Shown here: positions 10,556 through 34,362 of the stretch, in pieces
Position numbering within the stretch: position 1 is the stretch's first letter
Layout: each line of letters starts with the position of its first letter
Origin: a virus
Strand: one strand, 5' to 3'
Virus record (IMG/VR): IMGVR_UViG_3300025141_015004
Location: 1 to 60,922 of that record
DNA: 60,922 nt
The notes under the pieces: generated by a model
Told to the model about the DNA's origin: nothing
Database searches by the model: none
What the model saw: the letters and a program-made list of their open reading frames with translations, nothing else
Translations under genes and position numbers: made by a program

Positions 10556-11449
10556 ATGAAAATAACAAATAATACTAGTAGAGACATGTCAGTTCTCACA
10601 AAAACTTTGGAATCATTTATTCCATATGCTCAAAAACGATTGGAATATGACAAACCCTTTCAAATTGTTTTTGAATCAGATGAAGAGAATGCAAAAAATA
10701 TCTTTGGGAAAACTGCATATTATGATCCAGCAACTATGAATGTTCATATTTATTCGGATGGAAGACACGACAAAGATATGTTGCGTTCCATTTCTCACGA
10801 AATGGTTCATCACGCTCAAAATTGTCGAGGAGATTTTGAAGGAGCTTTTGAAATGGGGGAAGGTTATGCGCAAAAAAGCCCTCATTTAAGGAATATGGAA
10901 GCTGAAGCCTATTTATTAGGCAATGGTTTTTTGGTTAGAGATTTTGAAGATCACATAAAAATGGGAGATAATATCGTGAACGAATGGAAAAAAGAAAAGA
11001 AAAAGAAGAAAAAAGTTTTAAATGAAAAAGTAAGCATCAGTGTAATCCCGAAGCTTATTCAGAGACTAATGAAAAAAGATCCTGCGGCCGCTGAACTTTT
11101 GAAACAAGCAGCAGAGTTAGCGCCTGCACAGCTTGGAGTGGCCATGGCAGAGGTGAATGCAGAACTATTAGGAGTCACGCCGGAAAAATTTGTGAAGGCC
11201 GCCGGGGGGGCAAAATCGGCTTTACAGAAAAAAGAGAAATTAAAGGCTAAAAAGCAAGCGGAGGCGCCAGTTGCAGCACCGGCAGAACCTATTAAGGAAA
11301 AAAGTCAAGAACTTGATGTGGATGCAGAGGCCGCGGTGGTAGTTGAAATTGAAGGCGATGAAACTGTTAAAGATCACTATAGAACGAAAAATGAAAAACT
11401 TTATGAGGAACTCATGAAAAGATTTATTAAAAAACAGGGAGATAAATAA
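10556..11449 (+). CDS. HExxH zinc metalloprotease-like protein
   Basis: 297 aa. SHEMVHHAQ gives His81-Glu82-x-x-His85, and NMEAEAYLLG (Glu114, Glu116) about 30 residues later fits the third ligand of a gluzincin-type site. Residues 1-80 form an alpha/beta lead-in (FQIVFES, YYDPATMNVHIY). From about residue 145 the protein becomes Lys- and Ala-rich low complexity (KKEKKKKKK, APVAAPAEP). Comparable proteins occur in T4-like marine phages (from memory). The substrate is unknown; virion protein processing or host attack are both possible. Confidence 0.75.
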   Translation: MKITNNTSRDMSVLTKTLESFIPYAQKRLEYDKPFQIVFESDEENAKNIFGKTAYYDPATMNVHIYSDGRHDKDMLRSISHEMVHHAQNCRGDFEGAFEMGEGYAQKSPHLRNMEAEAYLLGNGFLVRDFEDHIKMGDNIVNEWKKEKKKKKKVLNEKVSISVIPKLIQRLMKKDPAAAELLKQAAELAPAQLGVAMAEVNAELLGVTPEKFVKAAGGAKSALQKKEKLKAKKQAEAPVAAPAEPIKEKSQELDVDAEAAVVVEIEGDETVKDHYRTKNEKLYEELMKRFIKKQGDK

Positions 11450-11663: not shown

Positions 11664-11915
11664 ATGCCCGATTTTAATGAAATAACTCGTAAATTTCTTT
11701 TGGGAGAAAGTAAAGAAGATTATAGTGTCCAATTTCATATTCGCGCTATTTCTGAAGCGCTTAAATCTGTTGAGCCCAAAAGCCAAAAACAACAAAGAAA
11801 ATTGTATGAGGCATTAGAGCATCTTCGACAGGTTAAAAGAAAAAATCGACTTTTGGAAGAGAAATTTAAAATATTGGAAGAAGAAAACAACGTTCTCAAA
11901 GAAGGTGAAAAATAA
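11664..11915 (+). CDS. Small coiled-coil protein with N-terminal tag-like element
   Basis: 83 aa. The start MPDFNEITRKFLLGESKED has the basic-hydrophobic-E pattern of the recurrent tag. Residues about 40-80 form a heptad-patterned coiled coil (LRQVKRKNRLLEEKFKILEE). The stop overlaps the start of the big ligase-like gene (TAATG). It may be a packaged protein or a partner of the next gene. Confidence 0.6.
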   Translation: MPDFNEITRKFLLGESKEDYSVQFHIRAISEALKSVEPKSQKQQRKLYEALEHLRQVKRKNRLLEEKFKILEEENNVLKEGEK

Positions 11916-14707
11916 TGTCTAAGCTTTTGAAAGAAGGTGGTTTAGGGGGTCATATGAACCATTTGTATGAAAATCCCTATCTAACCTTCGCTCAACTCAA
12001 GGACGTGCTTACAAAGGCTTCGGAGGGGCACTTGGAGGGTACGGAGAAGACTGATGGCCAGAACCTGTTCATTTCTTACTCGGTAAAGGACGGAAAAGCA
12101 AAAGCGGCTAGAGGTAAAGGTAATATTAAAGATGGCGGATTGAATGCTAAAGGGTTGGCAAAGAAATTTGGCGGGAGAGGTTCATTAGAAGTTGCTTTTA
12201 CCGAAGCATTTAAGGCTTTTGAAGAGGCTATTAGGGTTCTAACAGATGAGGAACAAATTGAGATCTTCGGAAAAGATGCTAATATATTTTATAGTGCTGA
12301 AGTTCAGGATCCTAGGAACCCCAATGTTATCAATTATGATTTTAAAACCCTGAATATTCATCGCGTTGATCACGCCATGTACAATAAAGAAACCGGAGAA
12401 GTTGAAGACGTTGATACGACAGAGAATGCTTTAAAGCTTGAAGATGCTTTGGAAAAACTGAAAGATCGATGGGAAAACGATGATTTTCGTGTTCAAATGA
12501 ATGCGATAAGAAGATTGGAAGCTCTTAGCACAGATGATGCATTATCTGTTGCATTATCTAATTTGAAAAGCGTTATTAGTTCTGCCGGGATTTCAGACGA
12601 TCAAACAATCGGCGATTATTTAACTGCTAAAATTGTTCCAATGATTAAAGAAGATTTTCCCTCTACTCCGGAAGATAGAATGGAATTGCTTATGAATAGG
12701 CTTTTCCTAGGAACTGATATAAAAGTAAAAGAAATCCAAGCTGGATTGGATAAAGAACAAAAAAAAGCAATATCAGCAGCGGTCAAAAAATTAGGTGTTT
12801 ATTTTAAAGAAGTAATTACTCCCATAGAAAATATTATTCACGATTTCGCTGTCGAGATACTGAAATCATTCCACAGTACATTCGTTCTTGATAACAATAA
12901 AGAAGTTAAAAGACTTCAAAAAGAAGTTGCGGCGGCGATCAAAGGAATTGAAGCATCTGGTAGAGAAGATGCGATGGAGATTCTAACCAAACAACTCTCA
13001 AAGCTAAAAAAAGCCGAAAATGTTTCCAGCGCTTCGGAAGGCTTTGTATTTGACTATGATGGAAAGACATACAAGTTTACAGGAAACTTTGCTCCTGCAA
13101 ATCAACTTCTGGGATTATTCAAGTATGGAAGAGGCAAGATTCCTGCTTTGTCTAAACTGAATGAGGAAGTTGATATTGGGAAACAACTTATTCTTCTACC
13201 CGGAGGATTCAAGCCCCCGACCAAAGCTCATTACCAAATGATCAAATATTATGATGATCATCCTGAAGTTGGAAAAGTTCTTGTTCTCATCGGACCTTCT
13301 CCCAGAGGGAATTATGATAGAGAAACCTCTATGAAGATTTTTGATCTCTATGGAGCAGGCAGTCTTGATAAAGTAGAGATTGTGCAAACTGAATATAACT
13401 CTCCTATTCGAGCCGCATATGAGTTTTTGATTAGCGACCCAAGAAGAGAAGATTATAGACAGTTTTCTTTTGGAATGGGGGCTTCTGATAAAGACGGAGA
13501 CGAAGCTAGGTCAAGGCAATTTGTAGAGTATTTTACAGAGAAAAGCCCTGATAAGCTTCCAGAAGGCTTTGATGTTGTTTTACCTCCTTGTTGCCCTGCG
13601 ATTGGGGGAGACGAGCCAATAAGTGCTACAAATCTTCGCAAAGCTCTGGATGAGGAAGATTTAGACACAGTTGAAAGACTTATTCCTGACCATGTTGATC
13701 CTGCGGAACTAGTTAGTATTGTAAAGGGGCTAGAAGAAGTATCTTCAATGGCGGGAGGAAATGTCGCCATTGGCTCCGGAAGCAGACTCTTTAAGAGAGA
13801 TGATGATGAAGAGCGAGAAGAGCAAAAAATTCGTGAACTTGTTAGAAGAGGTTTAAATATTATTATGGAAGAAAAAAACAGAGAACAAAAACTGAGAACT
13901 ATAGTTCGAAAACTCATAAGTGAAAAGATGGGCAATAAGATTCTTCAAGAGCAAGAAGAAGATATGGCTGCCGGTAATCACTCTACAGCTATCAATTATC
14001 TTGAGAAAGTTCTCAAATCAATTATTCCCGGAAAGAGTGGCGGTTCTCAACTAGAGCCTGAATATGTTTCTCTTTCTAGGCCCGAGCAGAGAAAATCTTT
14101 TATAAAACATGTTATTCAGGGATTATATGATGAGTTGGCTCCCGGGATGTCATTAACTGGCCTTTTATCTCGTTTTGAGAAAAGGCGAGAACAATTTAAG
14201 GCCAAAGAAGCAGAGGCTTTAATGGAAGCTGAAGAGATTACAATAAAACTTGATGATGATGGGCTCCCGGGAGTTGAAGCTCCCGAAGAGGAGAAAGAGG
14301 AACCAACAGATGATTTCCCAGAAGAAAAGAAAATATCGGGAGAGAATTCCATTGGGAGAAAAGCTGCTTATAGATTTATAAAAGGTCAAATTGATAATAT
14401 TCAAGGAGCTTTAAATGATCTGGAAGAAACTCCGGAAGAAAAGGCATCTCGAGAGTCGTCCGATCCAGAATCTGATGATCCCCAAGAAGAATATTTAGAC
14501 TTTCTTTTCACAAATCTCATGCTTCATGCCTATAGGCTAGAGAATAAACACTTCGATTCAACTGATCAAGGTTCTGAAGATTTCTTTAAAAATATCGTCG
14601 ATAAGGCGGATCAAGAAAGAGAAGGCGAAGGAGAAGGAGAAGAGCTTGAAGCCGATCTTGAAATAGAAACCGAGCCGGAACCAGAGGAAACTGAATTAAC
14701 TCTTTGA
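11915..14707 (+). CDS. Ligase-fold nucleotidyltransferase fused to cytidylyltransferase-like domain
   Basis: 930 aa. The N-terminal domain (about 13-420) has the covalent nucleotidyltransferase motifs of DNA/RNA ligases: EKTDGQN (Lys45), IFYSAEV, then SEGFVFDY (motif IV) and TYKFTG (motif V). It resembles the ligase-like phage family DUF6267. The second domain (about 427-620) has GGFKPPTKAHYQM and PISATNLRKAL, the (H/T)xGH and ISxTxxR motifs of the NMNAT/cytidylyltransferase superfamily; TKAH departs from HxGH at two positions. The C-terminal 300 residues are charged and acidic. The start MSKLLKEGG is tag-like. Possible roles are nucleic-acid repair, NAD metabolism or protein modification; the substrate is unknown. 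Confidence 0.8.
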   Translation: MSKLLKEGGLGGHMNHLYENPYLTFAQLKDVLTKASEGHLEGTEKTDGQNLFISYSVKDGKAKAARGKGNIKDGGLNAKGLAKKFGGRGSLEVAFTEAFKAFEEAIRVLTDEEQIEIFGKDANIFYSAEVQDPRNPNVINYDFKTLNIHRVDHAMYNKETGEVEDVDTTENALKLEDALEKLKDRWENDDFRVQMNAIRRLEALSTDDALSVALSNLKSVISSAGISDDQTIGDYLTAKIVPMIKEDFPSTPEDRMELLMNRLFLGTDIKVKEIQAGLDKEQKKAISAAVKKLGVYFKEVITPIENIIHDFAVEILKSFHSTFVLDNNKEVKRLQKEVAAAIKGIEASGREDAMEILTKQLSKLKKAENVSSASEGFVFDYDGKTYKFTGNFAPANQLLGLFKYGRGKIPALSKLNEEVDIGKQLILLPGGFKPPTKAHYQMIKYYDDHPEVGKVLVLIGPSPRGNYDRETSMKIFDLYGAGSLDKVEIVQTEYNSPIRAAYEFLISDPRREDYRQFSFGMGASDKDGDEARSRQFVEYFTEKSPDKLPEGFDVVLPPCCPAIGGDEPISATNLRKALDEEDLDTVERLIPDHVDPAELVSIVKGLEEVSSMAGGNVAIGSGSRLFKRDDDEEREEQKIRELVRRGLNIIMEEKNREQKLRTIVRKLISEKMGNKILQEQEEDMAAGNHSTAINYLEKVLKSIIPGKSGGSQLEPEYVSLSRPEQRKSFIKHVIQGLYDELAPGMSLTGLLSRFEKRREQFKAKEAEALMEAEEITIKLDDDGLPGVEAPEEEKEEPTDDFPEEKKISGENSIGRKAAYRFIKGQIDNIQGALNDLEETPEEKASRESSDPESDDPQEEYLDFLFTNLMLHAYRLENKHFDSTDQGSEDFFKNIVDKADQEREGEGEGEELEADLEIETEPEPEETELTL

Positions 14708-15005: not shown

Positions 15006-15707
15006 TCATTTTTCCTCTTCTGATTCAATCAGTTTTTTAATTTTTGAGTAAACTGCTGGACATAACCTTTTTATTAAATCTCTGTCATAGAGAAAATAAT
15101 CGGTAAATGCGGACGCATAATATTCTCTTATTGATGTTGCGGCATACGGACTCGAAAAACACCCATGTATATATCCAGATAAAGTATTATACCCTATTTC
15201 GTCGTATAAATAAAAATCAAAATCTTCATCGTAGTTAATTTTTAAAAAATCTTGGATCTCAACTGGGTGGCCTTTTTGTTTTATAATATGATAAAGTTTT
15301 TTTCTTCTTGCTAGAAATTCGTCTTCTACTTTATTATCTCCATATATTTCATCCGTAAATTGAGCTTCCGTAGAGTGTGCAAGTTCATGAATAATATCGT
15401 CTAACATATCTAAATTATTATCTTGCTGGTTTGTTATATAAATTGCCCCATCTTTAAAAACAGCATTAATTTCTCTTTCATCAAATTCCGGAAGATGCGC
15501 AACATAGATTCCATCAACTCCGTAAAACAGTCCTTTTGGCACTGTTTTGTTTATCATGTTTATGATTTTTCCAACATTAGTTTTTTCCGGATCTAAATCA
15601 TCAACGATAAAAAATGGGATATTTCCATGTACATAATATTCCCTCATTTGATGTCCTAGGAAATTATTGTGTCTTTCTTTCAAAACATTCCTGAGTGTCA
15701 TTTTCAC
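15006..15707 (-). CDS. HExxH zinc metalloprotease-like protein
   Basis: 233 aa. The start is GTG at 15707, or ATG two codons later (15701); AAGGA serves either. IIHELAHSTE gives His107-Glu108-x-x-His111. A following segment DEIGYNTLSGY and REYYASAFTDYF supplies possible third ligands. The N-terminus (MTLRNVLKERHNNF) is a tag-like element. It overlaps the upstream gene by 44 nt. Family not assigned; probably a soluble peptidase. Confidence 0.7.
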   Translation of the reverse strand: MKMTLRNVLKERHNNFLGHQMREYYVHGNIPFFIVDDLDPEKTNVGKIINMINKTVPKGLFYGVDGIYVAHLPEFDEREINAVFKDGAIYITNQQDNNLDMLDDIIHELAHSTEAQFTDEIYGDNKVEDEFLARRKKLYHIIKQKGHPVEIQDFLKINYDEDFDFYLYDEIGYNTLSGYIHGCFSSPYAATSIREYYASAFTDYFLYDRDLIKRLCPAVYSKIKKLIESEEEK

Positions 15708-15987: not shown

Positions 15988-16515
15988 TTAAATGTTAAAC
16001 TTTTTTAATGCATCAATTGTATTATTGTGAATTTTTGCTTTAACTTCTATTTTTTCTCCGGTATGATCAGAAAATTTGTTCGAAATTAATACCCCGTCTT
16101 TTTTGTTGATTGCGCGGTAAACCTCGTCTATATCGATCCAGCCACATGCGTCATGCTCTGGATTTAAAGTACAAGGGAATTCGCTGGCGGATCCCATTAA
16201 AAATGTTGTGAATATTTCATCACCATGGTGTTCTTCATGCATATTTTCGTAATCTTTTCCGGAAAAATCATGACTGGCGCCAATTTCTTCCTTTGTTTCT
16301 CGGACTGCTGTTTGAAAAGCATCCTCTCCCTCTTCCGCTCCTCCGAATGGGCCAGTAAGCTCTCCTACATAATCTTCCTGTGCCGGGGCGCGTCTGATTA
16401 AAAGTATACTATCTTTATTTGGACAATAAATAATAAATCCGGCAGCAGCATTTTTTGATTCTTTTTTTTCTTCTCGTAGGTAACTTTTCCAATTATCTAA
16501 AACTTTATCAGTCAT
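15988..16515 (-). CDS. NUDIX hydrolase
   Basis: 175 aa. The complete Nudix box lies at residues 58-80: Gly58, Glu64, then RETKEEIGA with the REUxEExGU core. The family cleaves nucleoside diphosphates linked to another group, using Mg on the box glutamates; the exact substrate cannot be read from sequence. The N-terminal 20 residues (NWKSYLREEKKES) are an extra arm resembling the recurrent tag and the T4 capsid-targeting sequence. It starts 2 nt after the upstream gene. A role in removing NAD, ADP-ribose or RNA caps is conceivable. Confidence 0.85.
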   Translation of the reverse strand: MTDKVLDNWKSYLREEKKESKNAAAGFIIYCPNKDSILLIRRAPAQEDYVGELTGPFGGAEEGEDAFQTAVRETKEEIGASHDFSGKDYENMHEEHHGDEIFTTFLMGSASEFPCTLNPEHDACGWIDIDEVYRAINKKDGVLISNKFSDHTGEKIEVKAKIHNNTIDALKKFNI

Positions 16516-16516
16516 T

Positions 16517-16711
16517 TTATTTCCCTTTGGTTTTTTCGATGTTTGGCGGAGACAATTTATCTTTTCTAAAAACTGACAAAGATTTGACTAGCATTGTATA
16601 GACTTCTCTCGCATGCTCGGGATCCATTCCATCAGCCATTTCAGAATAATTACCCCAAGCTTCCATGATCGTCAATTTATTTTCCTTAAAAGATGTACAA
16701 ATTAAACACAT
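16517..16711 (-). CDS. Small CxxC protein
   Basis: 64 aa. It starts MCLICTSFKENKLTIMEAW, with a CxxC pair at residues 2 and 5 and then helices. Similar short proteins with an N-terminal CxxC and the EAW/F pattern are common in marine phages (from memory); their role is unknown. GGGGG precedes the ATG, and a CTATTTAT box lies 33 nt upstream. First gene of the minus-strand run down to 14696. Confidence 0.65.
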   Translation of the reverse strand: MCLICTSFKENKLTIMEAWGNYSEMADGMDPEHAREVYTMLVKSLSVFRKDKLSPPNIEKTKGK

Positions 16712-16725
16712 GTTTTTTCCCCCTT

Positions 16726-16745
16726 ATTATAGTATTATAAATAGA
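16726..16745 (-). promoter_or_regulatory. CTATTTAT box upstream of the 16711 operon
   Basis: Minus strand TCTATTTATAATACTATAAT, with the octamer 33 nt before the start codon at 16711. It lies in the 69-nt gap between phoH and the small CxxC gene. Confidence 0.45.
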
Positions 16746-16780
16746 ATTCTCTTTTTAATTAAGACCTATTCTGTTTTTCG

Positions 16781-18091
16781 TTATAAAATCCTTGCAGCCA
16801 ATGTTGCCGTTTTTGATCTCTCGCCTTTAATTAGCGTCACATGACCTGCAATCTCGTGTTCTTTAAATTTCTCAACGGCGTAAGTTAGCCCATTTGAGGT
16901 TTCATCAATATACACATTATCAATCTGTTCAATGTCGCCGGTCAATACAATCTTGGTGTTTTCACCCACGCGCGTTATAATGGTCTTTAATTCGTGTCTG
17001 GAGAGGTTTTGCGCTTCATCTACAATAATGTAAGCATTTGAGATTGAACGGCCTCTAATATACGTTAACGCTTCAATTTCGATGGTTCCATTGGTCATAT
17101 ATTCCTCCATCATCATTTTGTCATTGCCCATGAGGTATTGAAGGTTATCACGGATTGGAGCCAACCAAGGTCGCATCTTTTCTTCCATTGACCCCGGAAG
17201 ATATCCAATGTCTCTTCCCATCGGTTGAACCGGCCGGGAGACAATTAATCTGCTATACATCTTGCCTTCCAAAACTTGTTGAATTCCTGCCGAAATAGCC
17301 GCAAGTGTTTTTCCAGAGCCGGCTTTTCCAATCAAAGTCACAATCGGAACGAACTCATCTAATAGGAGGTCCATAGCGAAGCTCTGCTCTTTGTTACGGG
17401 GCGTTATGACCCATTCCCAACCTTGGCCATCGAATACTCTATAAAGTGCCTTAGAATAGCCTTTAAAGCGCGATAAAGCAGTCTTCTTTTCGTTGGCGTT
17501 GGACACCATCATAACATATTGGTTCGGGAAGAGTTTTATGTCTTCTTTTTCGACAAAAACGTCCTTCCCGTCGTAAAACTGATCAATCACTTGGTCATCT
17601 ACGAGATATTTTGTGAATCCTGTGTATAGGTCATTTGTGCTTCCAACAACTTGGCCGGCCAAATAACCTTCTGCGGGAATCCCCAGAGCATCACATTTTA
17701 CTCTCATATTGATGTCCCGAGAGACAACAATAACTTTTCTCTTTGGATTTATCTTCTTTTCGGTTATAGCAACCCCAATAATCTGATTATCTGGGTTCTT
17801 TTTATCAAAACTCTCTGGAAGATCAGCAGGGTCATAAGGTTTGCATGAAATAATCCCTTTTCCCTTTCCAATTCGGACTCCTTTATAGAGGCTTCCTTTT
17901 TCTCTTAATTCGTCAAAGATCCTAATGATTGATCTTGCTTGCGCTCCAACTCCATCTTGTCGTGTTTTATGTTTGTCGATTTCTTCTAACACCTTAAGAG
18001 GAACAACTATATCATTATTTTCAAAGGAACGAATTGCATTAGCATCTGTTAGATATACGCTCGTGTCTAGAACATAAGTTTTTTTGGCCAT
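16781..18091 (-). CDS. phoH: PIN-PhoH fusion ATPase
   Basis: 436 aa. The N-terminal PIN nuclease-like domain (1-130) starts YVLDTSVYL (Asp8) and contains VLEEIDKHK and a later conserved Asp (VVSRDINMR). The C-terminal PhoH P-loop ATPase has GKAGSGKT near residue 253, YIIVDEAQN as Walker B and VLTGDIEQID as sensor. This is the full-length PhoH2 type, an RNA-directed ATPase/nuclease in bacteria; many phage PhoH proteins lack the PIN part. It is a frequent marine-phage auxiliary gene. A CTATTTAT box lies 43 nt upstream. Confidence 0.9.
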   Translation of the reverse strand: MAKKTYVLDTSVYLTDANAIRSFENNDIVVPLKVLEEIDKHKTRQDGVGAQARSIIRIFDELREKGSLYKGVRIGKGKGIISCKPYDPADLPESFDKKNPDNQIIGVAITEKKINPKRKVIVVSRDINMRVKCDALGIPAEGYLAGQVVGSTNDLYTGFTKYLVDDQVIDQFYDGKDVFVEKEDIKLFPNQYVMMVSNANEKKTALSRFKGYSKALYRVFDGQGWEWVITPRNKEQSFAMDLLLDEFVPIVTLIGKAGSGKTLAAISAGIQQVLEGKMYSRLIVSRPVQPMGRDIGYLPGSMEEKMRPWLAPIRDNLQYLMGNDKMMMEEYMTNGTIEIEALTYIRGRSISNAYIIVDEAQNLSRHELKTIITRVGENTKIVLTGDIEQIDNVYIDETSNGLTYAVEKFKEHEIAGHVTLIKGERSKTATLAARIL

Positions 18092-19821: not shown

Positions 19822-21123
19822 ATGAAAGAAGAAAATGAAGATAAAAAAATTAAAGTATTGACGATTTCGGATCACCCGTTTAGTCCATCCGGTGTTGGGA
19901 CTCAAACAAGATACGTAATCGAATCCCTGCTGAGGACCGGAAAATTTGAAGTTGTCTCTTTTGCCGGCGCAATGAGGCATGACAATTATCAGCCACAAAA
20001 AACAGAAGAATGGGGCGATGATTTAGTAATCTTCCCAGTTGATGGATATGGCGACCAAGAATCACTCAGATCAATCATAAGAAATCAAAAACCTGATATT
20101 CTTTGGTTTATGACAGATCCAAGATTTTATTCATGGTTATGGGAGATTGAGAACGAGATTAGGCCTCTTATGCCTATGGTTTATTATCATGTTTGGGACA
20201 ACTATCCATATCCTACATTTAATGGAAAATATTATAATTCAAATGATTTTATTGGTACGATTTCAAAAGTTACGGATGATATCATAAAAACTGTTTCACC
20301 TGATGTTGAATCAGCGTATATACCACATTCTGTGGATCCGACTTGGTTTAAAAAATTGGATGACGAAAGAATTAACAAATCAAAGAAAAAGATCTTCCAA
20401 GATAACATGCTGGATGATGACGGAAATGAAAAAATGGTATTCTTTTGGAATAATAGAAATGCAAGAAGAAAACAGTCCGGATGTTTGGTGTGGTGGTTTA
20501 AAGAGTTTTTAGATAAAATTGGTCACGACAAAGCAGTTTTGATGATGCACACAGAGCCGAAAGATGATCATGGACAAGATTTGGAAGCGATTGTGGAAGA
20601 ATTGGACCTTAATAATGGAGAAATAGTTTTTTCAACAACAAAATTGCAACCTGAACATTTAGCAGAAATTTATAATGTAGCAGACTGTACGGTCAATATC
20701 GCTGATGCTGAAGGCTTTGGGCTTGCGACCATGGAATCTCTTGCTTGTGGAACTCCAATCCTAGTCAACATGACAGGAGGCCTCAAAGAACAGGTCACAA
20801 ACGGAGAAGAGTGGTTTGGGATTGGAGTTCAGCCTTGCTCTAGGTCGATTATCGGATCACAAGTAGTGCCATATATTTATGAGGATCGTGTTCATAAAGA
20901 AGATTTTTTAGAAGCAATCGAGAAAATGTATGATGCTTGGAAAAATAATACAGAAGAGTATAAACAATGGTCGGAAAGAGGTCTTGAACATGTTGAGAAA
21001 AATTACAATTTCGAAAAATATTGTGAGAAATGGGTTGAGGTTATGAAAAATATTCATGAAAAACATGGCTCTTGGGACACTCGTAAGGGCTATAAATCAT
21101 GGGAATTGCGAGAGGTCATTTAA
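19822..21123 (+). CDS. Glycosyltransferase, GT4-like
   Basis: 433 aa, GGAGGAG upstream. The N-terminal Rossmann half starts KVLTISDHPFSPSGVGTQTR. The C-terminal half has the GT-B donor site DAEGFGLATMESLACGTPIL with the E-x7-E pattern, followed by TGGLKEQV. GT4 enzymes are retaining and transfer sugar from a nucleotide sugar. First gene of the glycan operon; the next gene starts directly after its stop and is of similar fold. The acceptor is unknown. Confidence 0.8.
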   Translation: MKEENEDKKIKVLTISDHPFSPSGVGTQTRYVIESLLRTGKFEVVSFAGAMRHDNYQPQKTEEWGDDLVIFPVDGYGDQESLRSIIRNQKPDILWFMTDPRFYSWLWEIENEIRPLMPMVYYHVWDNYPYPTFNGKYYNSNDFIGTISKVTDDIIKTVSPDVESAYIPHSVDPTWFKKLDDERINKSKKKIFQDNMLDDDGNEKMVFFWNNRNARRKQSGCLVWWFKEFLDKIGHDKAVLMMHTEPKDDHGQDLEAIVEELDLNNGEIVFSTTKLQPEHLAEIYNVADCTVNIADAEGFGLATMESLACGTPILVNMTGGLKEQVTNGEEWFGIGVQPCSRSIIGSQVVPYIYEDRVHKEDFLEAIEKMYDAWKNNTEEYKQWSERGLEHVEKNYNFEKYCEKWVEVMKNIHEKHGSWDTRKGYKSWELREVI

Positions 21124-22407
21124 ATGAAAAAGAAAATTATTATTAAAGGCCCTTTTCTCTCTCGATCCGGATATGGAGAACAAGCTAGATTTGCTCTTCG
21201 TTCTCTCCGCACAAAAGAGGATCTATTTGACATTTTTTTGATTAATATTCGATGGGGCACCACCGGCTGGCTTTGGGAAGACAACGAAGAAAGAAAATGG
21301 ATTGATGAACAAATTAAAAAAACAGTTCATTATATCGAGGAACATAAAAAACACAATGTCCAACCTCAATTTGATATGTCCCTACAGGTTACGATCCCAC
21401 AGGAGTGGGAACAAATGGCACCAATTAATATTGGATATACAGCGGGAACCGAATCAACAAAGATGTCGCCACAATGGATCGAAAAGTCTAAAATGATGGA
21501 CAAAATTCTTGTTACATCAGTTCATACAAAATATGCTTTTGAGAATACATCTTATAAGGCACAGAACCCTCAAACTGGAGAAATTCTTGATTTTGAAAAT
21601 GATACACCTTTGGAAGTTGTTTCATACCCAGTTCGCCAATTCGAGCCTTGCGGGAATTTTAAATTGGACTTAAGGCATGATTTTAATTTTCTTTGTAATG
21701 CTCAATGGTCGCCAAGAAAAAACGTTGAAAATACGATTAAGTGGTGGATAGAAGAATTTTGGGATCAAGAAGTTGGTTTAGTTGTAAAAGGTAATGTATC
21801 TAACAATTCTTATATGGATAGGCTTGCCACAGAAAAACGTTTACAGTCGATTCTAAAAGATTATAAAGATAGAAAATGTTCTGTATATTTGCTCCATGGA
21901 GATTTATCCGAGAGCGAGCTTGCGTCACTTTACCAGCACGACAAAATTAAGTGCTTTATTAACCTAGCACATGGTGAAGGTTTTGGTCTTCCGGTTTTCG
22001 AAGCAGCTTATTATGGCATGCCCGTGATTGCTCCTAATTGGGGCGGAGTCGTTGATTTTCTTTATGCTCCCAAAAAGGACAAAAAAGGAAAAATAAAAAA
22101 CAAACGCTATTTTACAAAAGTTGATTATGATATAAAACAAATTCAACAAGAAGCAATTTGGGAACCTATCTTAATTAAAGATTCAATGTGGTGCTTTCCG
22201 AAGCAGGGTAGCTACAAGATGGGATTAAGAAAGGTTTTTAAACAATATGATCTAGTGTCGAAAGAAGCAAAAAAGCTTCAAAAGTGGCTTTGTAAAGAAT
22301 TCTCAGAAGAGAAAAAATATATGGAGTTTGTTGAAAATATTATTTCTAAAGAAGAGTTAGAATTAGCAAATGAGATCGAAGAAATGTTTAAAGATTTAAA
22401 TGAATGA
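21124..22407 (+). CDS. Glycosyltransferase, GT4-like
   Basis: 427 aa, starting one base after the previous stop. The N-terminus GPFLSRSGYGEQARFAL parallels the SGxGxQxR of its neighbour. The donor-binding site reads HGEGFGLPVFEAAYYGMPV then APNWGGVVDF. The two adjacent genes probably arose by an old duplication or work in sequence. The end overlaps the next gene by 4 nt. Confidence 0.8.
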   Translation: MKKKIIIKGPFLSRSGYGEQARFALRSLRTKEDLFDIFLINIRWGTTGWLWEDNEERKWIDEQIKKTVHYIEEHKKHNVQPQFDMSLQVTIPQEWEQMAPINIGYTAGTESTKMSPQWIEKSKMMDKILVTSVHTKYAFENTSYKAQNPQTGEILDFENDTPLEVVSYPVRQFEPCGNFKLDLRHDFNFLCNAQWSPRKNVENTIKWWIEEFWDQEVGLVVKGNVSNNSYMDRLATEKRLQSILKDYKDRKCSVYLLHGDLSESELASLYQHDKIKCFINLAHGEGFGLPVFEAAYYGMPVIAPNWGGVVDFLYAPKKDKKGKIKNKRYFTKVDYDIKQIQQEAIWEPILIKDSMWCFPKQGSYKMGLRKVFKQYDLVSKEAKKLQKWLCKEFSEEKKYMEFVENIISKEELELANEIEEMFKDLNE

Positions 22408-23267
22408 TGGAAGAATATATCTTAATATCGGATATGTTTTTGGGAGACTATACCGGAGGCGCTGAATTAACTACAGACGCTATTATTGAAACCAGAAGGG
22501 ACCAAATATCTAAAATAAGATCTCGTGAGATAACATCTGACTTCATTAATGAAAATTGTGAAAAAACATGGATTATTGCTAATTGTATGGATATATCTTT
22601 TTTGTTAAAAATGAAGATCATAAAAAAAGTAGCTAAATATTATTTCATAGAATATGATTACAAATATTGTAAATTCAGGAATCCTATTTTTCACAAATTT
22701 GTAAACGAAGATTGTGCTTGTGAAAAAGAGAGTGTCGGGAAGATAAATTTATTATTAATTGCAAAATCATGTGGTGTTTTTTTTATGTCCGAGGGTCAAA
22801 GGAAATTATATTTAGAGAAATTTCCAATTTTAGAAAAGACAAAAACATATGTATTAAGTTCTGTTTTCTCTAAAGAAATTCTCGAATTTTTTAAAGATTA
22901 CAGTATTCCGAAAAAAAATAATAAGTGGGCGATTCTTGGATCCAATATGCCCGTTAAAGCAACTAGGAAAACTGTTAGTTATGCTAAATTAAAGAAATAT
23001 CAATATGAAGTTCTTGGCAACCTGCCTTATAAAAAGTTTATTAAAAAAATATCTCTTTTTAAAGGATTGATCTTTCGTCCCGGTGCGCTTGATACTTGTC
23101 CTAGAATTGTCATAGAAGCTAAATTATTAGGTTGCAAATTAATTTTAAATGAAAATGTACAACATAAAGACGAAGATTGGTTTAAGCAAGAAAAAGGAGA
23201 TATAATTAAGTACCTTGAAGGTCGTTCAGCTTTTTTTTGGGATATAATTGAAGAAAAGAAAATTTAA
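22404..23267 (+). CDS. Glycosyltransferase-like protein (GT-B C-terminal half recognisable)
   Basis: 287 aa, shorter than usual GT4 enzymes. The N-terminal motif GDYTGGAELTTDAI has the GGAE signature of GT4-type acceptor domains. The C-terminal part has FRPGALDTCPRIVIEAKLLG, equivalent to the donor-site E-x-x-L-G region. The first E of the usual E-x7-E is replaced (Asp-Thr-Cys-Pro), so donor binding may differ. ATGA overlaps on both sides. Confidence 0.65.
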   Translation: MMEEYILISDMFLGDYTGGAELTTDAIIETRRDQISKIRSREITSDFINENCEKTWIIANCMDISFLLKMKIIKKVAKYYFIEYDYKYCKFRNPIFHKFVNEDCACEKESVGKINLLLIAKSCGVFFMSEGQRKLYLEKFPILEKTKTYVLSSVFSKEILEFFKDYSIPKKNNKWAILGSNMPVKATRKTVSYAKLKKYQYEVLGNLPYKKFIKKISLFKGLIFRPGALDTCPRIVIEAKLLGCKLILNENVQHKDEDWFKQEKGDIIKYLEGRSAFFWDIIEEKKI

Positions 23268-24190
23268 TGAGACGAAGCGTATTAATAACCGGAGGAGAGG
23301 GATTCCTAGGATCTAATTTAATAGAGTACCTAATATTGAACACGAATTATAGAATTTTTTCTATTTCTAAAAATAAAATATGTAATGATTATCCTAGTGA
23401 AAGGTTTATCTCCATACAACACAACTTGCTGGATCCTTTTAAAGAAAATTTAAAAACAAAGTTAAAAAAAATAGATTATATTATTCACCTTGCCGGAAGC
23501 TCTGATGTGAAAAAGAGCATGCTGTTTCCTTTAGAGTCCTTTGAAAATAATGTAATTACAACAATCAATTTGCTAGAATTTGCAAGATTAAACATAATTG
23601 ATTTAAAACAATTTTTATTCTTTAGTACGGCAGAAGTTTTCGGCCCTTCCGAGAACAATAAAAAATTTAAAGAAGAAGATAAGTATAATCCCCACAGTCC
23701 ATATGCAGCATCAAAGGCTGCAGCCCAAGAAATGTGTCTTATTTATTTTAAAACTTTTGGATTACCTGCTATAATAACAAATGTTATGAACATTTACGGT
23801 AAACACCAGATAAAAAATAAATTTATTCCTAAAATGATAGAGATGATTTCAAGTGGAAAAAAAGTTTTTTTACACGCTAGCGATGGCCCGGATAGAAGGA
23901 ATTACCTCCACGTAAAGGATATTTGCAATTCTATTACATTTTTAATGAAAAAAGGCTCTCCCGGGGAAAAATATAATATCGTATCTGATATTGATACAAA
24001 CAATCTTGAGATTGTGAGAATTATTTCCGAGATCCTTAATAAAGAGTTAAATTATGAATTAATATCTCCCACAAAAAAACACGGACATCATACGCTTTCA
24101 TTACTGGACGGAAACAAACTCCGGAACTTGGGATGGAGTCCTAAAATATCTTTAAAGTTTGGATTGAGGAGCTTTATAAACAATGAATAA
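23267..24190 (+). CDS. NAD-dependent sugar epimerase/dehydratase (SDR)
   Basis: 307 aa. The Rossmann motif TGGEGFLGSN is at residues 8-17, then HLAGSSDVKKSM, a TAEVFG strand with the catalytic Thr, and SPYAASK with the Tyr-x3-Lys pair. DRRNYLHVKD and the LGWSPKISLKFG end are typical of nucleotide-sugar epimerase/dehydratases. The exact sugar cannot be told. Overlaps both neighbours by 4-8 nt. Confidence 0.8.
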   Translation: MRRSVLITGGEGFLGSNLIEYLILNTNYRIFSISKNKICNDYPSERFISIQHNLLDPFKENLKTKLKKIDYIIHLAGSSDVKKSMLFPLESFENNVITTINLLEFARLNIIDLKQFLFFSTAEVFGPSENNKKFKEEDKYNPHSPYAASKAAAQEMCLIYFKTFGLPAIITNVMNIYGKHQIKNKFIPKMIEMISSGKKVFLHASDGPDRRNYLHVKDICNSITFLMKKGSPGEKYNIVSDIDTNNLEIVRIISEILNKELNYELISPTKKHGHHTLSLLDGNKLRNLGWSPKISLKFGLRSFINNE

Positions 24191-24926
24191 TCACTTTAAA
24201 ATAATAACGCCATCATATAATAATGAAAAATGGATCCGGGCTTGTATAAACAGCGCCAAAAGGCAAAAATATACAAATTATCAATGTATTATTATTGATG
24301 ATTGTTCAGAGGATAATGGCTCAGAAATAATAAAAAAGGAAATAGCGGGAGATTCCAGATTTGTTTTTATTCAAAATACCGAGAAAAAGCTAGCTTTAAG
24401 GAATATTTATGAAGCAATTGAGTTTTCAAACCCAAGTGAAGAAGATGTTATCATCACATTAGATGGGGATGATTTTCTCTATAAAAACGATGCTTTGGAA
24501 AAAGTGAACCAAGTGTATAATGAGACCGGATGCTGGATAACATATGGCAGTTATGCTGAATTTCCATCCAATAAGAGGGGAAAATTTTCTAGACAAATCC
24601 CGGATGAAATTATAGAAAACAATTCTTTTCGAGAGTCAGAGTGGATGAGTTCTCACATGAGAACCTTTAAACATAAATTATGGAAAAAGATTAAGAAAGA
24701 AGATCTTCTCGAAGAAGATGGTCGCTTTTGCGACGGCGCATGGGATATGGTTTTTATGTTTCCGATGCTAGAAATGTCGGGATTCAAGAGTTCCTATATA
24801 GAAGATATCTTGTACATTTATAATAGGACAAACCCACTAAATGAAGATAAAGTTAATTATAAAAAATTAATGGCCTCCGAAATGAAAATAAGAGGCATGA
24901 AAAAGTATGAAAGGATCGAATTATGA
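24183..24926 (+). CDS. Glycosyltransferase family 2
   Basis: 247 aa. GT-A fold: IITPSYNNEKWIRACINSAK, IIDDCSEDN (nucleotide-binding Asp) and ITLDGDDFL, the DxD metal site. The C-terminal half (GAWDMVFMFPMLEMSG) has the conserved W-D-x-x-F element. GT2 enzymes are inverting. It overlaps the next gene by 4 nt. Confidence 0.85.
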   Translation: MNNHFKIITPSYNNEKWIRACINSAKRQKYTNYQCIIIDDCSEDNGSEIIKKEIAGDSRFVFIQNTEKKLALRNIYEAIEFSNPSEEDVIITLDGDDFLYKNDALEKVNQVYNETGCWITYGSYAEFPSNKRGKFSRQIPDEIIENNSFRESEWMSSHMRTFKHKLWKKIKKEDLLEEDGRFCDGAWDMVFMFPMLEMSGFKSSYIEDILYIYNRTNPLNEDKVNYKKLMASEMKIRGMKKYERIEL

Positions 24927-25696
24927 TTTTTACATATTTTCAAGGTGGCCTAGGAAATCAAATGTTTCAAATCTCCGCAGCAAAATCGATAGCAATTGAT
25001 AATAACACGGAGGCTATTTTTAATTTAGATCATCATGATTTACCCAAGCAGGGAAGGAAATGTGAAAATTATTTGGATTCTATTTTTCGCAATATAGAGT
25101 TTTCAAAAGATTATAAGATAATTCGCGTATATCGCGAGCCCTCCTATTCCTATCAAAAGATACCATATATTCCCGGCGCTTGTTTGGTGGGTTATTTTCA
25201 ATCTGAGAAATATTTTATTCACAACAAACAATCAATTAAGGATTTGTTTTCAATAGATGAAAAAAGTGAAAAAATAATAAACGATAAATATTCTGAAATT
25301 TTAAGCAAAAATCCCGTCTCTGTACATGTGAGAAGAGGTGATTATCTCGAGGATAAAGATTATCACCCAGTATGTTCGAGGGAATATTATGACAAGGCGT
25401 TTAGCATGTTTTCAGAGAACACATCTTATCTATTGTTTAGTGATGACATTGGGTGGTGCAAGGAAAATTTCATCGGAGAAAACTTCTATTTTGCTGAAGA
25501 TAACGAGGATTATATAGATTTATTTTTAATGTCTATGTGTTCCCATAATATAATCGCTAATAGTAGCTTTAGTTGGTGGGCGGCATGGTTAAATAATAAC
25601 GAAGATAAGAAAATTATTGCACCAAAGAAATGGTTTGGAAAGTCGTCTAGTAATAATACAAAAGATTTGGTACCGGAAGAATGGGAAAGAATTTGA
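24923..25696 (+). CDS. GT11 alpha-1,2-fucosyltransferase-like
   Basis: 257 aa. GGLGNQMFQ at the N-terminus, VSVHVRRGDYL as the donor-site motif and ANSSFSWWAAWLN near the end are the GT11 hallmarks. GT11 enzymes transfer L-fucose from GDP-fucose. GDP-fucose can be made by Fcl and Gmd encoded at 36364-38264 in the same operon. It is followed by a short degenerate frame (25681-25800). Confidence 0.85.
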   Translation: MIFTYFQGGLGNQMFQISAAKSIAIDNNTEAIFNLDHHDLPKQGRKCENYLDSIFRNIEFSKDYKIIRVYREPSYSYQKIPYIPGACLVGYFQSEKYFIHNKQSIKDLFSIDEKSEKIINDKYSEILSKNPVSVHVRRGDYLEDKDYHPVCSREYYDKAFSMFSENTSYLLFSDDIGWCKENFIGENFYFAEDNEDYIDLFLMSMCSHNIIANSSFSWWAAWLNNNEDKKIIAPKKWFGKSSSNNTKDLVPEEWERI

Positions 25697-25800
25697 TATC
25701 TCGAGAAGAAAAGTTACAACAAATTTTAACTTTAGTTGAAGAATTTATAGACTCGAAAGAATTGGTCTGGCGCCCGGGCCAAGACTGGATTTATTTATGA
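25681..25800 (+). pseudogene. Possible remnant of a DegT/DnrJ/EryC1 sugar aminotransferase N-terminus
   Basis: A 39-codon frame overlapping the end of the fucosyltransferase. Its product (EEFIDSKELVWRPGQDWIYL) resembles the N-terminal stretch of PLP sugar aminotransferases, where a helix leads to a PGxxxIxY-type loop before the catalytic domain. Here it stops, and the next gene starts within 11 nt. No good Shine-Dalgarno. The resemblance is from memory and the piece is short; it may instead be a real small gene. Confidence 0.3.
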
Positions 25801-25810
25801 AGAATATTTG

Positions 25811-26545
25811 ATGATATCAATAGCAATACCGGCATATGAATCAAAAGGCAGAGCAGAAGAGTTTGCTAGATTTCAATTTGAGTCTTTTGTGAAGCAAACT
25901 TATCAAGATTTTGAAGTAGTTATTTCTGATCATAGCCAAGATAATATTATTAAAAATGTTTGCGAAGAATATAGGGATAGACTTAATATTAGGCATATTT
26001 TTAATGATGAAAGAAGAGGTATAAGTTCGTTTAACATTAATAATGCCATCAAATATTGTAGAGGGGAAATTATCAAATTTTTGTGGTTTGATGATTTTTT
26101 GTGGAACGAATATAGTTTGCAGTATACTTACGAAGCTTTTGATTTTGACACAAATTGGCTTGTTAGCGCTTGTGAACACACTAAAGATGATGGAAAAACA
26201 TTTTATCGGACTTTTTATCCGAGATACAATGAAGAAATTTATTTAGGAAATAATACCATTAGTAGCCCTAGTGTCCTTTCTATTAGAAATGGAAAGGACA
26301 GAATATATTTTGATAACCGTTTGATATGGTTGATGGATGTTGATTATTATAAAAAATTATATGACAAATACGGATTACCTAAAATTTTAAATAAAATTAC
26401 TGTCGTCAATAGAGACCACAAGAACCAACTAACCCACACCATGAATACATCGGTAAAAGAACGAGAACTCTACTTGATGAAGGAGAAATATAAAAGTGCT
26501 AAAAAAACAAAAAAACAAAGGAGAAAACAACATGAGCGAAAATAA
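25811..26545 (+). CDS. Glycosyltransferase family 2
   Basis: 244 aa from the ATG at 25811 (a TTG one codon earlier is possible). SIAIPAYESKGRAEE and VVISDHSQDN give the GT-A nucleotide site; FLWFDDFLW is the DxD region (FDD). The last 20 residues are Lys/Arg/Gln-rich (KKTKKQRRKQHERK) and overlap the ribosome-binding site of the next gene. No membrane helix. Confidence 0.75.
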   Translation: MISIAIPAYESKGRAEEFARFQFESFVKQTYQDFEVVISDHSQDNIIKNVCEEYRDRLNIRHIFNDERRGISSFNINNAIKYCRGEIIKFLWFDDFLWNEYSLQYTYEAFDFDTNWLVSACEHTKDDGKTFYRTFYPRYNEEIYLGNNTISSPSVLSIRNGKDRIYFDNRLIWLMDVDYYKKLYDKYGLPKILNKITVVNRDHKNQLTHTMNTSVKERELYLMKEKYKSAKKTKKQRRKQHERK

Positions 26546-27272
26546 AGAGAACAAAAGCACCGATATGGAGAAAATAATTAAATATATATGCTTCAATAAA
26601 TTGAGTTGTTTATGCGGCGCCGATGAGCACCTAGGTTCATCAATAAATTTACAAAGATTAGTAAAGTGTTTGGAATTAACTAAAGACATTCCGGGAGATT
26701 TTGTTGAAACTGGCGTTTGGAGGGGCGGAGCGAGCATGCTTGCGCAAGCTTTTTTCATGAAAAATAAAATTAATAAGAAAGTCTATGCAGCAGATTCCTT
26801 TGAGGGCCTCCCTCGACCGCAGGTGGAAAAATACCCTGTTGATGCAGGCGATATACATTTTAAATTTCCGTCATTATCGGTTTCCCGGGAAGAAGTTGAA
26901 GAAAATTTTCGACAAATTAACCTACTTAATGAAAATGTAATTTTTGTTGAAGGGTGGTTTGAAGATACTCTCCCTATTTTACGAGAGAGTCTTGATAAGA
27001 TTTCATTGCTTAGGTTAGATGGAGATATGTATGATGCTACATGGAATAGCTTAGTTAATCTTTATGACAAGCTTTCAATTGGTGGCATAATTATAATCGA
27101 CGATTATAGTACGCATTTTCGGTGCAAAAAGGCAGTTCTAGATTTTAGAGAAAAATATGAGATTACAGAAGAAATAAAAGATCCAGAAGAGCCTGATGAT
27201 TATTTTGGTCTTGGCTCGACATCAACTGGGCGCTCTAGTGGAGGTGTTGCTTGGTGGATAAAAGAAAAATAA
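26532..27272 (+). CDS. TylF/MycF-type O-methyltransferase
   Basis: 246 aa from the ATG at 26532, which has AAAGGAG at good spacing; an in-frame start at 26496 lies deep in the previous gene. GDFVETGVWRGGASML is the SAM-binding motif, then VYAADSFEGLP, LLRLDGDMYDATWNSL (metal-binding Asp residues) and IIIDDYSTH. These match macrocin-O-methyltransferase-like enzymes that methylate sugar hydroxyls with Mg. It would cap or modify the glycan. Confidence 0.85.
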   Translation: MSENKENKSTDMEKIIKYICFNKLSCLCGADEHLGSSINLQRLVKCLELTKDIPGDFVETGVWRGGASMLAQAFFMKNKINKKVYAADSFEGLPRPQVEKYPVDAGDIHFKFPSLSVSREEVEENFRQINLLNENVIFVEGWFEDTLPILRESLDKISLLRLDGDMYDATWNSLVNLYDKLSIGGIIIIDDYSTHFRCKKAVLDFREKYEITEEIKDPEEPDDYFGLGSTSTGRSSGGVAWWIKEK

Positions 27273-27273
27273 C

Positions 27274-28023
27274 ATGAGCAGCATGAATAAGTCTAAAATA
27301 GAAAAACTTAAACTAGACAACATAACATTACTAGCATTAGGCTCTACTCAAATTAATGAAAATTTGATGGCATTAAAATATAGCACTAAAAATATAGATT
27401 TCGGAGCTGTTAAATTTATCTCCCATGAACGTCCTAAAAAGATACCAGACAATATTAAATTTGAAAAGTTTAATGATTTTGAAAATATAAATTTTAAAGA
27501 GTTTAGCTATTATTGTATTTATAAACTTGTAGAACATGTAAATACTGATTTTATGTTGATGGTCCAACCTGACGGATTTGTTATCAATCCGGAATCTTGG
27601 ACTGATGAATTTTTAGAATGGGATTATTTGGGCGCCCCATGGCCAAATCAAAAAGATTCTTTTATTGATCCGTTTGGTAACCAGCAAAGAGTTGGCAATG
27701 GCGGGTTTACCTTGAGAAGCAGAAAAGTTTTAGAAGTTCCTTTAATTGAAGATATACCTTTCGAAGTTAATCAAGGAACATTCTATAAACATATGAATGC
27801 CGGATGCTATAATGAAGACGGCAATATCTGTGTACATAATCGTCATCTTTTTGAGAAACATGGAGTAAAGTTCGCTCCGGTGGAATTAGCAGCGAAATTT
27901 TCTCATGAAATTCCAGTTCCTGAAACTAAGGGAATAATAAAGCCCTTTGGTTTTCATAGATACTTCCCGGGAACCTATCCACGAAGATTTGATTTTAAGA
28001 CATATGTAAAGGAGCCAGAGTGA
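27274..28023 (+). CDS. DUF5672-type glycosyltransferase-like protein
   Basis: 249 aa. DFMLMVQPDGFVINPESW and WDYLGAPWP, followed by RVGNGGFTLRSRK, are the hallmark strings of DUF5672, a GT-A-like family found beside glycan genes. VQPDG probably stands for the DxD site. It starts 1 nt after the methyltransferase stop and overlaps the next start. Confidence 0.75.
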   Translation: MSSMNKSKIEKLKLDNITLLALGSTQINENLMALKYSTKNIDFGAVKFISHERPKKIPDNIKFEKFNDFENINFKEFSYYCIYKLVEHVNTDFMLMVQPDGFVINPESWTDEFLEWDYLGAPWPNQKDSFIDPFGNQQRVGNGGFTLRSRKVLEVPLIEDIPFEVNQGTFYKHMNAGCYNEDGNICVHNRHLFEKHGVKFAPVELAAKFSHEIPVPETKGIIKPFGFHRYFPGTYPRRFDFKTYVKEPE

Positions 28024-28733
28024 ATACCTTGAAAAAAATAAAGAAAAATTTTTTAGTTGTGAGCGATTATAATTGGCTGCCACAAAATTTAGAAGAATCG
28101 TGGGTCTGTAAATACACCGATAATTACTTAATTTACGATCGAGCCCACAGGTTTGAAGAGTCTGATAAAGTAAAACATCAAAAAAATGTTGGCCAAAATG
28201 TATATGATATATTTGATTTTATTGTTACTCATTATAATGATCTACCAGATGCAACAATTTTTTGTAGAGCATGTGTACACTACCCAAAGAAAACCCCGGA
28301 TGGGGAGTCATACGGCAATTGCAGCGAAGAAAAGTTTGTTAGTTTAATGAATAACGATACATTTACGGAGCTTCACGATTTTGGTCCGGAAGTACATAAT
28401 GGAACTAGTAGTAAAATGGCGGAGGATGGCGGGTTTTTAGAAATTAATAACAGTTGGTATTTGCACCATGTTCCATGGAAACATTTCAGTAATTTAAATA
28501 CTTTTTTAAGAGACGTATATATAAATCCTGAAATTCCTAGATATATAAGATTCTCCCCCGGGGCAAATTATGTAATCCCCAAAGATGACATTTTAAAGTA
28601 TAGTAAGAATTTTTATGAAAAGATAAGAGAATATCTCAGTTGGGATTGTGTAATAGGAGAAGCCCATATATTAGAACGATGCTTGTATACGATTTTCACA
28701 TGTGATTACAAAGTAAAAGAAAAGTATAGGTGA
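28020..28733 (+). CDS. DUF3431-like protein
   Basis: 237 aa, GTG start with AAGGAG upstream. NVGQNVYDIFDFIVTHYNDL then PDATIFCRA, and later FSPGANYVIPKDDI and GEAHILERC, match DUF3431 (xLPDxxxFxxG...GAxFxV...ER). The family sits in glycan loci and is probably glycosyltransferase-like; activity is unproven. Confidence 0.65.
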   Translation: MNTLKKIKKNFLVVSDYNWLPQNLEESWVCKYTDNYLIYDRAHRFEESDKVKHQKNVGQNVYDIFDFIVTHYNDLPDATIFCRACVHYPKKTPDGESYGNCSEEKFVSLMNNDTFTELHDFGPEVHNGTSSKMAEDGGFLEINNSWYLHHVPWKHFSNLNTFLRDVYINPEIPRYIRFSPGANYVIPKDDILKYSKNFYEKIREYLSWDCVIGEAHILERCLYTIFTCDYKVKEKYR

Positions 28734-28739
28734 TTTTTA

Positions 28740-33811: not shown

Positions 33812-33812
33812 A

Positions 33813-34349: not shown

Positions 34350-34362
34350 GAAGGAGAAAAAA

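Follow-up and report, generated by a model that had tools for sequence, protein, structure and literature searches.

We analyzed the gene at positions 11,915 to 14,707 of the 60,922-base virus record IMGVR_UViG_3300025141_015004, here called the window, which joins a domain of the RNA ligase superfamily to a HIGH-superfamily nucleotidyltransferase. With a probability of roughly 0.6, its product is an enzyme that travels as cargo in a T4-type phage head: it would be packaged, cut by a gp21-type protease and injected, with RNA end repair as the likeliest role. This reading is carried by two folds with conserved active sites that co-occur, and by a conserved site and a protease gene in relatives. 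The gene is built as follows:

11915..14707, +: whole gene, encoding a leader, RNA-ligase-like domain, HIGH-superfamily nucleotidyltransferase and acidic tail (ATG start, 930 residues)
11915..11935, +: leader MSKLLKE (aa 1-7), predicted to be removable by a cut at E7↓G8 within [LI]xE↓GG (↓, predicted cut), a site aligned in homologs
11936..13135, +: RNA-ligase-superfamily covalent nucleotidyltransferase domain (aa 8-407), from an AlphaFold2 (AF2) model, fold matches, and PF09414 in some homologs
13175..13747, +: HIGH-superfamily nucleotidylyltransferase domain (about aa 421-611), from a fold match, phrog_395, and hhalign to cyanophage cytidylyltransferases
13772..14704, +: acidic tail module (aa 620-930), a separate downstream gene in relatives

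The open reading frame (ORF) and the motifs quoted in the original prediction are present exactly as described, and 84 homologs share the first domain. The models of both domains are of high confidence and their folds match the ligase-type and HIGH-type superfamilies it had proposed. Head-packaging signals, found here by homolog alignment of the [LI]xE↓GG site, were missing from its description.

Two nucleotidyltransferase domains in one protein

Database searches recognized little of the window protein. No Pfam family scored above chance, the sequence had no match in the PDB, and the only PHROGs match was to phrog_395 cytidyltransferase (E 0.0022), in the second domain. The ligase domain went unidentified in the Pfam, PHROGs and PDB sequence searches, with chance-like matches that sit in a helical insert. 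As the first fold search was swamped by the HIGH domain, we modelled the ligase domain separately. The AF2 model from a 68-row alignment had a mean predicted local distance difference test score (pLDDT) of 93.1 and a predicted template modelling score (pTM) of 0.90, and all top 43 PDB matches (VIA-align) were ligases or capping enzymes. The Z scores were 8.7 for Naegleria RNA ligase, 8.1 for T4 Rnl1, 7.7 for T4 Rnl2, 7.6 for Trl1, 7.3 for African swine fever DNA ligase and 5.6 for mRNA capping enzyme. Judging by this model, the superfamily of the domain is secure and its family is not, because the Z values are modest.

The motifs of covalent nucleotidyltransferases, I (KxDG), Ia (R), III (E), IV (EG) and V (K), are present in order:

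12047..12064, +: motif I KTDGQN (aa 45-50), with the codon of Lys45, the predicted nucleotidylated lysine, at 12047-12049; K45, D47 and G48 in 84/84
12104..12121, +: motif Ia AARGKG (aa 64-69, Arg66); R66 in 84/84
12299..12301, +: motif III glutamate E129; 83/84
12392..13024, +: helical insert between motifs III and IV (about aa 160-370, about 210 residues), from the secondary structure of the model
13037..13051, +: motif IV EGFVF (aa 375-379); E375, G376 and F379 in 84/84
13070..13084, +: motif V YKFTG (aa 386-390); K387, T389 and G390 in 84/84

Conservation was scored in an alignment of 84 homologs (83 loci and the window), in which E44, N396, Q397, H13, H16 and G38 did not vary either. Peculiar to the domain are the long insert, a motif V with one lysine, an end directly after motif V and an invariant GG...GHxxH start. 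Among the homologs, the Pfam family most often matched was PF09414 (RNA_ligase, Rnl2-like), weakly and in 10 of 68 (best E 4.6e-5); locus L034 reached 21.1 bits against a curated cut-off of 27, and the window protein was unmatched. A second Rnl2-type ligase was encoded in the same genome in just 4 of 18 records at E 0.01 (3 above the cut-off), and the domain is therefore not generally a spare copy. These proteins form a new family within a known superfamily, with no new chemistry as far as shown.

A model of aa 1-640 had a pLDDT of 90.1. Its residues 421-609 matched PPAT/CoaD with Z 13.9 over 160 residues (root mean square deviation 3.3) and NadM-type NMNAT with Z 12.2. On this model, the second domain belongs to the HIGH superfamily with a PPAT/NMNAT-type Rossmann fold, which appears not to distinguish the substrate, as PPAT and NMNAT score alike. 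Two signatures mark it, from the sequence and its relatives:

13202..13231, +: GGFKPPTKAH (aa 430-439), HxGH-type signature (GxFxPxxxxH)
13619..13639, +: ISATNLR (aa 569-575), ISxTxxR-type signature

Relatives carry GGFKPPHxGH or GRFQPMGxHH, plus (I/M)S(A/G)TxxR. The altered HxGH reported earlier, TKAH, is present but less odd than claimed: it is a local variant common only to the window protein and its nearest relative, L007, while most relatives have HxGH or GxHH, and T at the first position of an HxGH-type motif is the standard PPAT form. By profile, the second domain matched cyanophage cytidylyltransferases (hhalign 98%).

The fold of the second domain bears on a quite unlikely explanation, namely that it makes NAD from nicotinamide mononucleotide (NMN) against NAD-depleting defences, with the ligase domain using NAD- or NMN-related chemistry. 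The NMNAT-type fold would fit, NAD-salvage enzymes are known in phages (PMC9503650), and NAD synthesis was proposed by the authors of a cyanophage study (PMC9602691). However, PPAT and not NMNAT is the best fold match, and no resemblance to the NMN-binding domain found in NAD-dependent DNA ligases was noticed. According to PMC9503650, NadM-bearing phages without exception also have NadV, whereas a NadV-type NAPRTase occurred in only 1 of 18 records here, which weakens salvage through NadV. With this count, and with fold matches to ATP-type RNA ligases, the NAD-like donor suggested in the original prediction finds no support.

We then asked how widely the two domains occur together. A scan of viral contigs with the single window sequence found no relatives, and a 4-row profile of the ligase domain alone retrieved at least 571 related stretches, of which 80 were fetched. 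In annotated phages, tblastn found three relatives of the first domain, in Microcystis phage Mel-JY01 and two uncultured huge phages. In the Mel-JY01 protein the nucleotidyltransferase precedes the ligase domain, the LR756508 protein has the order ParB-like, nucleotidyltransferase, ligase, and LR756500 encodes ligase and nucleotidyltransferase as two adjacent genes; L003 is a ParB-containing, nucleotidyltransferase-first relative. After removal of copies, the sample comprised 80 ligase-domain homologs; contig ends truncate 7, leaving 73 testable. Both domains lay in a single frame in 68 (30 ligase-first, 37 nucleotidyltransferase-first, and L057, where the nucleotidyltransferase is upstream within the same open frame) and in separate genes of one contig in four (L004, L036, L069 and, by a weak match, L037). 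No nucleotidyltransferase was seen in the remaining one, L073, on a short contig. Hence the pairing is kept in 72 of 73, and this co-occurrence is not built in, because the scan was seeded with the ligase domain only. In a tree, the two domain orders form two deep sides (support 100). Separate genes without co-occurrence, which the original prediction had named as counting against it, were thus not the pattern found, and its central claim of two nucleotide-transfer chemistries in one chain is supported by conserved active sites on both sides and by fusion in two orders, adjacent genes and a cyanophage analogue. A merger unique to the window phage was rejected, as relatives and cyanophages keep the pair. 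Separately, L027 (137-4831) encodes a 1564-aa relative in which at least eight DUF4116 repeats separate the ligase domain (259-672) from the HIGH nucleotidyltransferase (1323-1495).

Predicted head-packaging signals in the family

The sequence (L/I)LxE↓GG stands directly before the ligase domain in nearly all homologs, as protein start or internal linker. Among the 62 homologs with sequence upstream of GG, 56 have [LIVM]xE↓GG, compared with a background of 2.1% elsewhere in the same proteins; the triplet occurs in 17/17 short leaders and 39/45 internal or long ones. In the window the site reads LKE↓GG, at the domain boundary, and aa 1-8 are the only residues of the ligase-domain model with pLDDT below 50. 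A further 14 homologs begin MGG, the LLxE being gone exactly where the protein starts at GG. In the nucleotidyltransferase-first proteins of L044, L060 and L079, a leader LGxWLAxQIxxE occurs twice, N-terminally and again ahead of the ligase domain. The [LI]xE cut rule of T4 gp21 is visible in the T4 sequences themselves, in IPII/IPIII (MKTYQEFIAE), gp21 (MNEPQLLIE) and Alt (MELITE); published cut sites of Alt are ITE-6 and LTE-619 (PMC5694885).

Of 23 gene-bearing records, 19 encode a protease of the corresponding family, Peptidase_S77 (gp21 family), as does S-PM2, compared with 0 of 14 control genomes; the four gene-bearing records lacking it are 44- to 100-kb fragments. The locus L069 (3791-13220) has a T4-like leader MKxxxTFxxFLxE (MKHIKTFEGFLNEA and similar) on at least 7 of its 19 ORFs, where 0.03 were expected, and these ORFs include stand-alone ligase and stand-alone nucleotidyltransferase genes. 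The leaders suggest that this locus may hold a whole battery of injected proteins, their genes side by side. Cyanophage nucleotidyltransferases begin similarly (MKKFSAFLTEA in Syn33, MKKFSAFLNEA in S-P4, MKLFNQFFKEA in S-CRM01), as does the nearby S-CRM01 kinase g130 (MISFDQFLSE); PMC10665884 cites a putative protein kinase in S-CRM01 virions. Mass spectrometry of virions detected NMNAT-like/cytidylyltransferase proteins in S-CREM2 (ORF154), S-SCSM1 (ORF91) and, earlier, S-CBWM1 (PMC10665884, PMC9602691).

We propose that the precursor is drawn into the prohead during head assembly, where the gp21-type prohead protease would cut at [LI]xE↓GG, releasing the ligase domain with Gly-Gly at its N-terminus. 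Once matured, the enzymes would enter the cell with the DNA and work before phage gene expression. Packaging (ligase domain included), cleavage and injection would thus proceed as for the T4 internal proteins and Alt, which are packaged, cleaved and injected (PMC7411985, PMC9958956). Lys45 of the ligase domain is predicted to take up a nucleotide, which we guess to be AMP rather than GMP; the second, PPAT/NMNAT-type nucleotidylyltransferase has a role at which we can likewise only guess. The likeliest job would be to seal or process RNA ends that the host has damaged, such as those of cleaved tRNAs. RNA repair as the step acted upon is a guess that we put somewhat short of even odds, made plausible by RNA ligases being the solved structures closest in fold.

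Since the RNA ligases nearest in fold act in the cytoplasm, the product might instead be an ordinary phage enzyme of RNA repair or processing, made during infection and never packaged, with LLxEGG a conserved structural motif of the N-terminus. The 14 homologs beginning MGG, which are entirely without a leader, would suit this explanation, which we nevertheless consider unlikely. A structural motif is at odds with the predicted disorder of aa 1-8 and with the loss of LLxE exactly where the protein begins at GG. Moreover, leaders recur on unrelated neighbours in L069, nearly all larger contigs carry the gp21-type protease, and related nucleotidyltransferases were detected in cyanophage virions.

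Several observations weigh against a packaged and injected enzyme. The prohead protease was not found in the 61-kb window fragment, and the short leader MSKLLKE is without the YxxF part of the T4 targeting sequence. Head entry of the MGG-starting homologs is unexplained, and in six homologs C, S or M replaces E before GG. The homologs are related, and the site counts are not independent events. The proteins seen in virions are cyanophage relatives of the second domain and not of the ligase domain, and the authors mention possible carry-over. As to the enzyme itself, its motif V has a single lysine, whereas known RNA ligases have KxK. In L061, L082 and L046, the change from E to C (DARQLLTC↓GG) is an unexplained alternative form of the site.

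The protease-type site and the separate genes also bear on the coupled reaction in one chain envisaged earlier: the association of the two enzymes stands, but their staying joined may be wrong, and these features suggest co-delivered enzymes that need not stay joined. In a more doubtful extension, the head-maturation protease would be the switch of the injected enzyme, its in-capsid cut of the polyprotein giving the RNA-ligase-fold enzyme a required N-terminal Gly-Gly, so that the nucleotidyltransferase pair would arrive primed for repair or re-coding of host RNA before phage genes are read. If this were true, it would be, to our knowledge, the first ligase-superfamily enzyme known as head cargo.

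No function has been assigned to the pair, found in at least 571 viral-contig matches and with an analogous pair in many T4-like cyanophages, and one of its halves lacks a Pfam or PHROGs family. As virion cargo, the pair would be at work during the opening minutes of infection, the phase whose outcome depends on host defences, tRNA-cutting nucleases among them. Isolates (Mel-JY01, S-CRM01, Syn33, S-PM2) allow direct tests on the basis of site pattern, protease and leaders, and [LI]xE↓GG with a leader offers a sequence rule for spotting other injected proteins, also in phages of uncultured hosts.

The acidic tail and neighbouring genes

From aa 620 the tail consists of 25% D/E, and the last 160 aa of 33% D/E. 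The acidity of the roughly 300-residue tail noted in the original prediction is real, but the tail is a separate module with its own gene in relatives: in L008, L013, L015, L032, L033 and L052, the counterpart of residues 620-930 is a gene of its own immediately downstream, and L122 and L123 have the same arrangement, at least eight relatives in total. The conserved unit consists of a small gene (FLLGE), the ligase/nucleotidyltransferase and the tail gene, the last two being fused in the window. Features of the tail and upstream region are:

13892..13924, +: within the tail, LRTIVRKLISE, which may be another leader-like element and has an ISE↓K site, proposed from sequence alone
11664..11915, +: 83-aa gene directly upstream (MPDFNEITRKFLLGE↓SK..), a conserved partner with matches in 15 loci, mostly directly upstream, and also in L122 and L123
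10556..11449, +: metallopeptidase-like gene, in 23 loci; 37% identity over 153 aa (E 4e-24) to a protein of phage immuto
8495..9553, +: Pol-beta-type nucleotidyltransferase gene, in 5 loci; NTP_transf_2 E 0.0013 (below cut-off), phrog_36119 E 3e-46

The Pol-beta-type gene upstream, present in the window and five relatives, recalls pairs of RlaP and RNA ligase (PMC7824862), which would fit the guessed role in RNA end repair. In Flavobacterium phage immuto (L005, 7275-9998), one protein combines a Pol-beta-like N-terminal region with a HIGH nucleotidyltransferase and with a metallopeptidase that is homologous to the window ORF at 10556-11449. A small window protein (15006-15707, -), with a weak ATLF/M90-type metallopeptidase match, has a homolog that adjoins the gene in L007. 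Beside the gene, the opposite strand (15988-18091, -) encodes a Nudix hydrolase (15988-16515) and a PIN-PhoH protein (16781-18091); PhoH is present in 11 related loci.

A search of plasmids gave no matches, and the cellular collection gave seven, all in metagenome-assembled genomes (MAGs). In one, L123 (4738-8212 of CP070664.1, a 2.8-Mb WOR-3 MAG chromosome), the three-gene unit lies between a shortened CoaBC gene and an S41 peptidase fragment. Peptidase_S77 is absent from the CP070664.1 genome, and the locus is either an inserted phage fragment or an assembly chimera.

Further downstream, a long same-strand gene run (19822-38264, +) resembles a glycosyltransferase/sugar cluster, and its first gene was identified as a glycosyltransferase.

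A very improbable explanation is that the second domain supplies this cluster at 19.8-38.3 kb with nucleotide-sugars (CDP- or ADP-sugar) and is paired with the ligase only incidentally. Such a role was proposed for other phage HIGH nucleotidyltransferases (PMC7824862), and one glycosyltransferase of the cluster is identified; an incidental pairing, however, would not be expected to be kept in the 72 of 73 testable homologs and in T4-like cyanophages.

Comparison with known systems

A close analogue of the window protein is S-PM2d138, in which DUF6267 (PF19782; E 1.6e-111) is followed by a CTP_transf_like domain. It was matched, whole or in part, in 521 phage records (201 over at least 80% of its length), and in the annotated records inspected the two halves are usually adjacent genes, named 'hypothetical protein' and 'cytidyltransferase'. 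As in the window protein, KxDG...EGxV...K motifs stand beside a HIGH nucleotidyltransferase in both the fused S-PM2d138 and the pair PHM1_161-162, DUF6267 carrying K-x-D-G, EGFV and then a lysine, and the second domains are homologous to that of the window (hhalign 98%). The S-PM2 protein also gave a weak structural match to the ligase model (BFVD). In contrast, DUF6267 is without the GG/HxxH start and the [LI]xE↓GG site, and the first domains are not one family by profile. Membership of the ligase domain in DUF6267 was rejected, with no Pfam match and an hhalign probability of 3.9 in which motifs IV-V alone were aligned. No mention of DUF6267 was found in the literature searched. The cyanophage pair reflects either distant homology or repeated recruitment, and both strengthen the functional link. 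The annotations phrog_395 and phrog_3041 (cytidyltransferase) share the HIGH domain with the window protein and cover that domain alone, the ligase-like part being without a PHROG.

T4 RNA ligases 1 and 2 and Naegleria RNA ligase have the fold and the order of motifs I, Ia, III, IV and V in common with the ligase domain, although the likeness of fold is modest (Z 7.7-8.7). The ligase domain differs in its added helical insert of ~210 residues and invariant N-terminal GG and HxxH, has no OB or C-terminal RNA-binding domain, and does not reach the curated Pfam cut-off.

Polyvalent proteins (Iyer et al. 2017, PMC5512222) are, like the window protein, multi-domain enzymes presumed to be injected, and relatives of the window protein fuse or adjoin ParB, Pol-beta nucleotidyltransferase and metallopeptidase domains. 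Set against the several conflict-type effector domains that a polyvalent protein joins, the window protein itself has two enzymes and a tail, compared with the ParB-containing relative L003 and the peptidase-containing one of immuto; a term search of PMC5512222 found no combination of a ligase-superfamily domain with a HIGH nucleotidyltransferase.

The T4 internal head proteins and Alt, which are capsid-targeted, gp21-processed and injected, share the [LI]xE cut site with the family and a MKxYxxFLxE-type leader with its stand-alone relatives. The family differs from them in its types of enzyme, in the site between two enzyme domains in many relatives, and in the minimal leader of the window protein.

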